DNA from: Prolixibacteraceae bacterium
Lineage (GTDB): Bacteria; Bacteroidota; Bacteroidia; Bacteroidales; Prolixibacteraceae
Length of the DNA stretch: 32,152 nucleotides
Assembly: GCA_025355875.1 (NCBI GenBank)
Contig: JANXYV010000199.1
Span: 1 to 32,152, forward strand
Direction: 5' to 3'
The translations under genes were made by a program, and so were the position numbers. Positions 1,631 to 3,570 of the stretch are shown here, in pieces; within the stretch, counting starts at the first letter, position 1, and the number at the start of each line of letters is the position of its first letter. The notes beneath the pieces are model-generated. The model was not told the DNA's origin, ran no database searches, and saw nothing but the letters and a program-made list of their open reading frames with translations.

Positions 1631-1993
1631 TTCCATGTTCTAAATTTCAATTTCCACGCCAGGTAATCCTGGGATACTCCCCATTATTTTTCTCCAAAAA
1701 TCTAAATTAATCATCGACTTGAACAATTAAAAGAGTTGTTTGTCTTTTATTTTGATTCAGATCTGAATTCCTGATCTTGAGAGAAATAAATGATCAATTC
1801 AAAACTCATGACAGACAAGTCGGGCACCATTGCATCGTTTCTTCACCGTTCACCGAATGGTTTAGCCCAATCGTGTCTAAAATTCTCACAACAATCTTTC
1901 AAAGTATCTACCTATCGGACCAACAAAAAAAAAAATTGGGTCTACGAAAATGAGGAAGGAAATGACAAAGAAAAACTTTGACAAAAATAAATT
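1631..1993. other. Spacer without a convincing gene
   Basis: AT-rich stretch between the aminotransferase and the first leader motif. It holds a short hairpin (CCAGG-taat-CCTGG, 1659-1672) without a T-run, and a homopolymer A tract near 1925-1935. A 63-codon open frame (1790-1981) has low-complexity Lys/Asn/Ser composition and no recognisable motif. The promoter of the downstream small genes probably lies here, but I see no clean TAnnTTTG box. Confidence 0.4.
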
Positions 1994-2024
1994 CGGAGCA
2001 GCCTAAAACCGGACAGAGTAGGCA
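1994..2024 (+). promoter_or_regulatory. Repeated 5' leader motif, copy 1
   Basis: First of three near-identical leaders. The shared core is AGCC(T/G)AAAACC, four variable bases, then an invariant AGAGTAGGCA, preceded by CGG(A/G)G. Here 20 nt separate the motif end from the ATG at 2045. GCCT (2001-2004) can pair with AGGC (2020-2023), and the upstream CGG with the CCG in the loop, which would make a small pseudoknot. The repeat is seen directly; an RNA regulatory role is inferred. Confidence 0.6.
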
Positions 2025-2044
2025 GAATATCAAATACAATCAAA

Positions 2045-2314
2045 ATGGGAAAAACAGTTATTGCACGACACAAAGTTGGAAATATCGAGGCGTGGCTCAA
2101 AGGCCATCAGGACCGGGTTGAATTATTTGCTCCGGCAGTATCAAGTTTTAAAACTTTTCAGGACACGGATGACCCCAATTTGGTAGTTATGGTCATTGAA
2201 GTCACAGATCTGGAAAAGCTTGGAGCAATCATAAATGATCCGAAAAACAAGGATGTAAAAAATAAGCACACTGTAATAGAGCCAATTACTCTGTCAATGC
2301 CCGTGGATTTATAA
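2045..2314 (+). CDS. Small dimeric alpha/beta-barrel-like protein (ABM-like)
   Basis: 89-residue cytoplasmic protein without a signal peptide. It opens with VIARHKVGNIEAWLKGHQD and continues with a DDPNLVVMVIEVTDLEKLGAII segment; both match in layout each of the two modules of the protein at 2820-3479 (H-KV-D/N-x-x-AWLK and DDP-x-x-V-x-x-V-x-x-x-D). This pattern (strand, helix, two strands, helix) is that of the dimeric alpha/beta barrel or ferredoxin-like superfamily that includes antibiotic biosynthesis monooxygenase-like proteins. No catalytic residues can be assigned, so enzyme function is not claimed. It is preceded by leader motif copy 1 and seems related by duplication to the 2820 gene. 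Confidence 0.7.
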   Translation: MGKTVIARHKVGNIEAWLKGHQDRVELFAPAVSSFKTFQDTDDPNLVVMVIEVTDLEKLGAIINDPKNKDVKNKHTVIEPITLSMPVDL

Positions 2315-2434
2315 AACAACATTTTAATTTCCTGGCAGATTCTCCTGAATTGAATTCTTTGTAAAAGATGTGGTTGAAATGGATAATTGAAAATATGGAG
2401 ACGCTAAATGGAATTTGACGGAGGTAAAATAAAA

Positions 2435-2465
2435 CGGGGAAGCCGAAAACCTGTAAGAGTAGGCA
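2435..2465 (+). promoter_or_regulatory. Repeated 5' leader motif, copy 2
   Basis: Second copy of the leader: AGCCGAAAACC, TGTA, AGAGTAGGCA, preceded by CGGGG. As in copy 1, exactly 20 nt separate its end from an ATG, here at 2486. That spacing decides the start of the downstream gene: an upstream in-frame ATG at 2408 would translate straight through the motif. Apart from the core, the flanking DNA is not conserved. Confidence 0.6.
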
Positions 2466-2485
2466 AAATATTAAAATTCAATAGT

Positions 2486-2758
2486 ATGCCAAAGTATGTC
2501 ATCGAAAGGGAAATTCCGGGAGCCGGAAAATTGACCGCTGAGCAACTGAAAGCAATTTCACAAACTTCCTGTGGAGTATTGTCTAACATGGGACCTCAAA
2601 TTCAGTGGGTACAAAGTTATGTTACAACCGATAAAATCTACTGTGTTTACAATGCACCCAACGAAGAAATGGTACGTGAACACGCCAGGCAAGGTGGGTT
2701 TCCGGCAAACTCAGTCAGCCGGGTTTCGACCATCATTGACCCGACTACAGCAGAATAA
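2486..2758 (+). CDS. DUF4242 family small protein (SCO4226-like fold)
   Basis: 90-residue protein beginning MPKYVIEREIPGAGKLT, the typical DUF4242 opening, and containing LTAEQLKAISQTSC, a WVQSYVTTDKIYCVYNAPNEE segment and an EHARQGGFPANSVSRV end. Family members are ferredoxin-like; a Streptomyces relative (SCO4226) is reported as a nickel-binding protein, but metal binding here is only a possibility. The start at 2486 is preferred over 2408 because leader copy 2 would otherwise be coding and because family members begin at M(P)KYVIER. It sits between two ABM-like genes with the same leader, which suggests shared control. No signal peptide is present. Confidence 0.8.
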   Translation: MPKYVIEREIPGAGKLTAEQLKAISQTSCGVLSNMGPQIQWVQSYVTTDKIYCVYNAPNEEMVREHARQGGFPANSVSRVSTIIDPTTAE

Positions 2759-2771
2759 GAAAAATAACACG

Positions 2772-2803
2772 CGGAGACAGCCGAAAACCGATTAGAGTAG
2801 GCA
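2772..2803 (+). promoter_or_regulatory. Repeated 5' leader motif, copy 3
   Basis: Third copy: AGCCGAAAACC, GATT, AGAGTAGGCA, preceded by CGGAG with one extra base before the core. It ends 16 nt before the ATG at 2820. The motif starts 13 nt after the stop codon of the DUF4242 gene, so it would lie in an intercistronic position if the cluster is one transcript. That favours a post-transcriptional role over a promoter role. Confidence 0.6.
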
Positions 2804-2819
2804 ACAAAAAATAACAACA

Positions 2820-3479
2820 ATGAAAAACAAGAATTTTTTCTCAGTCGTGGCAATCACAATTGTCTTATTTTCAATGACTGGCATAAGTCATGCCCAAATG
2901 CCTGCAGCACCTTTTAATGTGATGGAAATTTCACATACAGTAAAAGATTATGCTACATGGAAAAAGGCATTTGATGCCGATGCAGCCAACCGTAAAGCAG
3001 GTGGATTGGAATTTATAGCTTTGGGAAGAAGCATTGAAGATCCAAATAATGTAACTGTAGTATTACAAGCTACCGATTTAGGGAAGGCAAAAGCATTTGC
3101 TGCTTCTCCAAAATTAAAAGAAGTAATGGAAAAAAATGGCGTGACTTCAAAACCGGCTATCAGCTATTTTAAGGTAATCCGGATGAATCCTGATTCAAAG
3201 GAAAAAAACTGGGTAGTAGTAACCCACAAAGTGAAGGATTATGATGCCTGGCTAAAGGTATTTGATAAGGAAGGTACTGCAGGTAGAGCCGCTCAGGGCC
3301 TGATTGATGTGGTATTGTCACGCGGTATTGACGACCCAAGCATGGTTCATATCGTTTTTGATATCAAAGACATGGCAAAAGCAAAAGCATCAATTTATTC
3401 GGAAGAAAAGAAAAAGCTGATGATGAATGCCGGAGTAGTTGGACTGCCAAAATTTGAATTTTTCACTCAGGGGGAGTAA
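2820..3479 (+). CDS. Secreted two-module ABM-like/dimeric alpha-beta barrel protein
   Basis: 219-residue exported protein. Residues 1-25 form a signal peptide (MKNKN basic start, hydrophobic core, SHA|Q cleavage site). The mature part has two homologous modules of about 90 residues: one from roughly 30 (MEISHTVKDYATWKKAFD) to 120, the second from roughly 130 (VVTHKVKDYDAWLKVFD) to 219. Each contains an internal (E/D)DP motif (SIEDPNNVTVV, GIDDPSMVHIV) and an AKA-rich helix. The module matches the single-module protein at 2045. In this superfamily such modules normally dimerise, so a tandem fusion could form the barrel intramolecularly. The catalytic role is unknown; the location is probably periplasmic. 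It is preceded by leader copy 3. Confidence 0.75.
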   Translation: MKNKNFFSVVAITIVLFSMTGISHAQMPAAPFNVMEISHTVKDYATWKKAFDADAANRKAGGLEFIALGRSIEDPNNVTVVLQATDLGKAKAFAASPKLKEVMEKNGVTSKPAISYFKVIRMNPDSKEKNWVVVTHKVKDYDAWLKVFDKEGTAGRAAQGLIDVVLSRGIDDPSMVHIVFDIKDMAKAKASIYSEEKKKLMMNAGVVGLPKFEFFTQGE

Positions 3480-3570
3480 GCAATAGCAAAAAGTAGATGA
3501 GTTTACTTTTGACAAAAAACACAAGGCTCCCTCGTTGAGCAGTGTACAAATAAAATTAAAATTTATGATT

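Follow-up and report, generated by a model that had tools for sequence, protein, structure and literature searches.

DUF805 (RF03081) and DUF805b (RF02914) are two RNA motifs of one Rfam clan, reportedly first described by Weinberg and others in NAR in 2017. DUF805b is of the cis-regulatory type and consists of a hairpin, here called S1, with a CCGAAAA loop and a AGAGUAGG tail. DUF805 shares this core in its 3' half (GGGGcGaaACCGAAAAgCC..GAGUAGG) and differs by an additional 5' hairpin, GUGGAG..CCAC. Among validated RNAs, the closest in architecture and size are small riboswitches of the H-type pseudoknot kind such as preQ1-I, which is built from a hairpin, an A-rich strand and a tail that pairs into the loop. 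A literature search on DUF805b, RF02914 and the DUF805 motif returned one machine-learning study and nothing further, and by title or the start of the abstract no function for either RNA was found; the discovery paper was outside the reach of this search, so that claims of novelty concerning phages, tandem copies and the second helix are limited.

Identity of the repeated element

The window, by which is meant the whole analysed stretch of 32,152 nucleotides from a Prolixibacteraceae genome, contains three copies of a short element in front of three consecutive genes (Table 1). All three match DUF805b over model positions 1–35 of 35 in an E-value scan of 1 kb, but none reaches the gathering cut-off of 35.6 bits, which is a reporting threshold and not an anatomical feature. 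The copies would thus be missed by routine annotation, and a scan of the window at gathering thresholds gave one tRNA and nothing else. Similar elements in three other loci (L013, L006 and L017) do reach the cut-off. Rfam families outside the DUF805 clan gave no match in positions 1900–2900 at E-values up to 5, and this includes the validated riboswitch classes (preQ1, SAM, c-di-GMP and others). Within the clan DUF805b is the best match, and the combination that marks DUF805, a 5' hairpin plus the core at 51.1 or above, was not found in the window copies. By Rfam comparison these copies are sub-cut-off members of the DUF805/DUF805b clan, a family already catalogued, and the sequence-only reading, which had not recognised them as a described riboswitch, has to be corrected in that they represent an outlying case of DUF805b.

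The window copies share with DUF805b the hairpin, the loop and the tail, but they lack the innermost S1 base before the CC and have variable loops of 4 nt. Copy 1 also differs in that a U replaces the near-constant G after the 5' strand of the second helix, S2. This U is at position 2004 (the copy reads CCUAAAA), and the other 186 of 187 collected elements have G there, at a position where the search patterns admitted only G or T. The phage element L357 shares the U of copy 1.

Table 1. Features of the window region carrying the three DUF805b-like elements.
Feature	Positions	Strand	Description
Copy 1, DUF805b-like pseudoknot	1992..2024	+	Rfam RF02914, 19.5 bits, E 0.01
Copy 1, S1	1992–1996 with 2009–2013		UUCGG/CCGGA, five possible pairs, one U-G; from sequence
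Copy 1, S2	2001–2003 with 2021–2023		GCC/GGC; from sequence
Gene 1	2045..2314	+	89 aa, no Pfam match; both gene 3 halves are homologous to it
Copy 2, DUF805b-like pseudoknot	2433..2465	+	Rfam RF02914, 34.1 bits, E 1.2e-7
Copy 2, S1	2434–2438 with 2450–2454		ACGGG/CCUGU, five possible pairs, one G-U; also in predicted fold
Copy 2, S2	2442–2444 with 2462–2464		GCC/GGC
Gene 2	2486..2758	+	90 aa, SCO4226-like/DUF4242 (PF14026), 2e-30
Copy 3, DUF805b-like pseudoknot	2771..2803	+	Rfam RF02914, 20.3 bits, E 0.0052
Copy 3, S1	2772–2774 with 2788–2790		three possible pairs
Copy 3, S2	2780–2782 with 2800–2802		GCC/GGC
Gene 3	2820..3479	+	219 aa, DUF3764 (PF12594), two gene-1-like stretches

The three copies and their genes

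A search of the window for AGCCNAAAACCNNNNAGAGTAGGCA gave exact matches at 2000–2024, 2441–2465 and 2779–2803, all on the forward strand and with no mismatch, and the sequence was absent from 100 dinucleotide shuffles. The distance from the end of the GGC to the ATG is 21, 21 and 17 nt for the starts at 2045, 2486 and 2820, which agrees with the three copies and the spacing of 20, 20 and 16 nt (counted after the final A) noted in the sequence-only reading. Copy 3 is intercistronic, as had also been proposed, and begins 12 nt past the stop codon of the middle gene. Nested folds computed with ViennaRNA, in which pseudoknots are not scorable, are no stabler for the window copies than for shuffled sequences (z of 0.03, -0.49 and 0.48), as is expected of a pseudoknot. 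A fourth exact copy is located elsewhere in this genome, on a different contig (G000:C146:5711), where it precedes a gene (L005:5759–6346) whose product matches prok_STING (1.2e-11).

Genes 1 and 3 are homologous, with 30% identity over 77 residues, and gene 1 is matched by both halves of gene 3, whose product has a signal-peptide-like start as judged by eye. No similarity was seen between gene 2 and gene 3. Duplication, which in the sequence-only reading did not explain the leader, is partly relevant given the homology of genes 1 and 3. Homologues of gene 1 are rare, being found in 3 of 395 genomes of the phylum with its own genome counted, and in five other loci (L033, L060, L094, L116, L245) proteins of this type are encoded downstream of the element; in L080 a longer protein of the same cluster stands behind it. 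The window has its own DUF4440 gene at 3565, and no element was matched in positions 3480–3565, while in the same genus several genes of DUF4440 type (L008, L009, L012, L015, L017) have the element 16–18 nt before the start.

Loci with a DUF4242 gene, 12 in number and drawn from 101 genomes, were compared. DUF805b lies ahead of this gene in the window, in L248 and L251, and weakly in L249 (19.8 bits, E 0.29), whereas the position is taken by DUF805 in six relatives (L250, L252, L253, L254, L255, L257). In L256 a DUF805 element precedes another gene of the region and not the DUF4242 gene, and in L258 neither motif was found at E-values up to 5. The replacement of one motif by the other before a single orthologous gene suggests that the two have one function. 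The presence of multiple clustered copies might be taken to indicate a mobile repeat or a recombination site of integron or transposon type, but this is hardly credible since the core is common while the flanks differ by eye, and since the place before most of the DUF4242 orthologues found is kept while the bases change.

Pseudoknot structure and covariation

A collection of 187 distinct elements was assembled with a regular expression having a fixed core, from named genomes (at least 118 stretches) and from genome searches. All 187 have a GG 3–7 nt before the NCC. S1 is formed by this GG with CC and S2 by NCC with GGN, and the two helices cross as in an H-type pseudoknot, with loop lengths of 3–11 nt. 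The printed structure line of RF02914 has no S2 pairs; the GCC/GGC pseudoknot is inferred here. Each helix was tested on loci fetched without requiring that helix, which limits circularity, and the shuffled expectations given below leave the relatedness among the sequences in place. Since some of the 187 elements come from loci that were retrieved with S2 fixed as G-C, the claim for S2 rests on the sets in which the helix was not forced.

For S2 this set consisted of the elements of L137–L210, which were fetched by Infernal with the Rfam model and of which those having the exact core were kept. The outer S2 pair is a standard pair in 42 of 44 elements, against 18.7 (sd 3.1) after shuffling, and all four Watson-Crick kinds occur (19 UA, 15 GC, 5 AU, 2 CG, with one UG in addition); with similar sequences removed the figures are 34 of 36 against 15.0. 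The outer pair of S1, in loci fetched by an S1-free pattern, is formed in 119 of 142 elements with 56.3 (sd 5.4) expected. A viral set in which neither helix was forced behaves in the same way, with 54 of 60 for S2 (35.2 shuffled), 48 of 57 for S1 (21.1 shuffled, the three of 60 without GG being excluded) and 45 of 46 for the inner S1 pair (33.2 shuffled). Some of the 6 of 60 viral elements, all found by the second search pattern, that are without the outer S2 pair are probably chance matches. Both complementarities suspected in the sequence-only reading, GCC/GGC and CGG/CCG, are thus borne out as covarying helices in related loci.

S1 pairing is possible in 154 of 187 elements and in only 75 or 69 when the 3' partner is slid by 1 or 2 nt. 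For the second and third outer pairs of S1 covariation is slight or absent (84 of 187 against 69.2, and 65 of 187 against 65.4). The inner S1 pair is gained or lost as a unit: of 42 elements with the inner base 39 have a loop 1 of 5 nt, and of 145 lacking it 139 have one of 4 nt.

Position relative to start codons

In 181 of the 187 elements an ATG follows within 100 nt and begins a frame that has 25 codons or more or runs off the locus. The constant spacing seen in the window is general: the ATG lies 14–29 nt downstream in 158 of 187 elements, with a mode of 21, compared with 378 of 3740 random anchors placed within these loci. Over its first 18 nt the spacer is rich in A (53%) and poor in G (5%). 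A same-strand open frame of at least 80 codons, counted without demanding a start codon, ends within 200 nt upstream in 85 of 168 cases, sometimes only 5–30 nt away, and many elements therefore appear to be intercistronic. A spacer of about 20 nt also leaves little room for a terminator.

A promoter reading was rejected, as the TAnnTTTG box is not enriched in the 70 nt upstream of the elements (10 of 182, with 6 in a far block and a shuffle mean of 5.9). More generally, a short and conserved sequence upstream of genes might act at the DNA level, as a promoter for an alternative sigma factor or as an operator for a dimeric repressor. This is very unlikely, given a loop varying from 3 to 11 nt, the covariation of two crossing complementarities, the narrow distance to the ATG on the sense strand, and some sites that begin only a few nucleotides past the upstream frame.

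Ten loci (L019, L020, L035, L036, L043, L064, L077, L087, L095, L103) have longer spacers of 41–57 nt. By eye, these contain a second hairpin after UAAAGUUU, between the element and the ATG, with stems that vary by pairs (GCUUUU/AAAAGC, GCCUUU/AAAGGC, CCGCUUUU/AAAAGCGG), and the genes that follow encode small exported proteins or resemble those for leader peptides. Eight such loci were scanned and no further Rfam family was found in them.

Distribution in genomes

With a spacer of 2–8 nt allowed, the exact pattern is present in 11 of 61 relatives, the own genome being counted here and below. With the RF02914 model, whose counts take in DUF805 elements as both models hold the same core, 51 of these 61 have a match at E ≤0.01 and 33 have one above the cut-off. 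The own genome has 13 RF02914 matches at E ≤0.06, three of them above the cut-off and six coinciding with matches to DUF805 RF03081. DUF805 itself gives six matches at E 1e-4, none of them on contig C64, and those on C87 and C141, which are identical and located at contig ends, may be one element. Among 296 genomes of the phylum 83 have a match at E 1e-4 and 59 have one above the cut-off, compared with none of 14 controls; at E 0.01 two of the 14 controls have a match and at E 1 all of them, but none above the cut-off. Weak scores, such as those of copies 1 and 3, which fall far short of the cut-off, are thus not specific. Of the 80 listed record titles (at least 118 stretches), 79 are Bacteroidota by name and one is an Ignavibacteria MAG. 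Matches at a fixed distance from the start, with compensatory changes, thus extend far beyond this locus into many genomes. Together with the covarying helices and the intercistronic copies this supports the earlier proposal of a cis-acting RNA, whose action would be translational.

This distribution bears on the possibility that the element is a leader that recruits the ribosome, docking on the 30S platform and constitutively raising translation without a Shine-Dalgarno sequence. Such a role would fit the fixed spacing of 20–22 nt and the presence between phage genes described below, and PMC9976891 describes ribosomes of Bacteroidia that ignore Shine-Dalgarno sequences, the tail of the 16S rRNA being held by bS21, bS18 and bS6. 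However, an element found in 83 of 296 genomes (E 1e-4) with few copies in each is no general initiation signal, and tandem copies would be unexplained, which makes this reading rather doubtful.

Phages and plasmids

In a viral collection the first search pattern was found in 109 contigs and the second in 83, with some common to both, giving in total 182 loci (L259–L440) with 189 elements, of which 144 are non-identical. An ATG follows at 14–29 nt in 123 of these 144. Of 124 viral downstream proteins 46 fall in one cluster, the representative of which is weakly similar to a ParB-like PHROG (4e-5), and among the best 25 of 42 families single representatives of other clusters match a DNA methyltransferase, HNH endonucleases, an exonuclease and repressors. 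Three contigs were examined, and two of them are phage. The gene order in L302 is primase/helicase, exonuclease, element, gene of the ParB-like cluster, methyltransferase and terminase, and in L264 exonuclease, element, gene of the ParB-like cluster and terminase, so that in both the element follows the exonuclease gene and precedes that of the ParB-like cluster. In the third, L273, short stretches match a tail fibre (5.8e-23), and the proteins tested gave no further phage hallmark. For the remaining viral loci phage status is taken from the labels of the collection, and gene order is the basis on which operons are inferred.

A tblastn search of the phage collection with the proteins encoded in L264 (ParB-like cluster) and L356, the latter having no Pfam match, was negative. 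With element-sized blastn queries only chance-level matches (E 4–6) were obtained in phages, and in plasmids one 35-nt match in Aureibacter (E 0.01) and four at E 5.

Genes following the element

A start codon within 120 nt was found for 130 elements, and 127 of the proteins were aligned, with L043, L113 and L115 excluded. The list is a convenience sample, with at least 118 stretches coming from named genomes and a part from one genus. The most frequent Pfam matches are DUF6520 (29), DUF4440 (10), SnoaL_2 (10) and SnoaL_4 (5), followed by SCO4226-like, OMP_b-brl and Por_Secre_tail with 3 each and others with 1–5 each, among the best 25 of 53 families. By a crude rule 95 of the 127 begin in the manner of a signal peptide, and 71 do not exceed 110 aa. 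Peptides resembling those with a double-glycine leader are seen by eye in L091, L095, L120 and L124. In L013 the frame that begins 23 nt after the element stops after 21 codons.

In L043 two DUF805b elements stand in tandem before one gene (548–580 and 581–613), and in L115 a second copy lies ahead of the same start, as judged by eye. Tandem copies occur in some riboswitches, and these back-to-back elements, the size and architecture, and the long conserved unpaired strands of the Rfam consensus would suit a candidate translational riboswitch built like preQ1-I, responding to a metabolite or signal common to Bacteroidota. We consider this possible rather than probable, as the genes behind the element have no evident common pathway, ranging from DUF6520 (29 of 127) and the DUF4440 and SnoaL_2 genes to many singletons, and include phage genes; the gene set is also unrelated to that of riboswitches of the preQ1-I type. 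Cyclic di-GMP is unlikely as a general ligand, since a GGDEF match at E 1e-5 is missing in 57 of the 83 element-bearing genomes, the own genome included, and the association with GGDEF is negative (odds ratio 0.29, possibly just taxonomy). The broad set of target genes, the conserved unpaired strands and the presence of as many as 15 or 16 matches in a genome, partly including DUF805 matches, could instead be explained by a binding site for an RNA-binding regulator protein, and this too is rather uncertain.

Proposed function

The observed sequence, covariation of both helices in related loci, spacing, intercistronic use and wide occurrence in Bacteroidota and in phages are probably those of a translational cis-regulatory pseudoknot of the orphan DUF805/DUF805b family that acts on the adjacent gene. 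Each copy would form, in the mRNA, an H-type pseudoknot of 33 nt about 20 nt upstream of the start codon, with S1, made of GG/CC and a variable outer pair, closing a loop whose GCC would pair with the GGC of the 3' end as S2, and with GAAAA and AGAGUA strands between the helices. The fixed distance to the AUG, the intercistronic use and the lack of space for a terminator point to an action on translation initiation. In a 30S subunit whose P site holds the AUG, the pseudoknot would have its 3' end (about -21) near the mRNA exit of the platform, where folding or the binding of a partner could help or block initiation. The riboswitch, the ribosome-recruiting leader and the protein-binding site considered above are three versions of this reading, in which a signal is presumed; a small molecule is our first candidate for the partner, followed by a protein and the ribosome itself as equals.

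A bolder reading, which we hold to be improbable, is that of a bacterial counterpart of an IRES, in which a 35-nt pseudoknot at a fixed distance from the AUG would land the SD-blind ribosomes of Bacteroidota or answer a global signal there. It would be common to host genes for small exported proteins and to phages, where it is placed between genes of the replication region.

For the DUF805/DUF805b family, the pseudoknot reading narrows the question to a covariation-backed fold with translation as the most likely level of action, c-di-GMP as an unlikely ligand, mutual replacement of the two motifs and carriage by phages. In a phylum whose ribosomes ignore the Shine-Dalgarno sequence, a leader fold at a fixed distance from the AUG would be a direct route to studying the choice or control of start sites.
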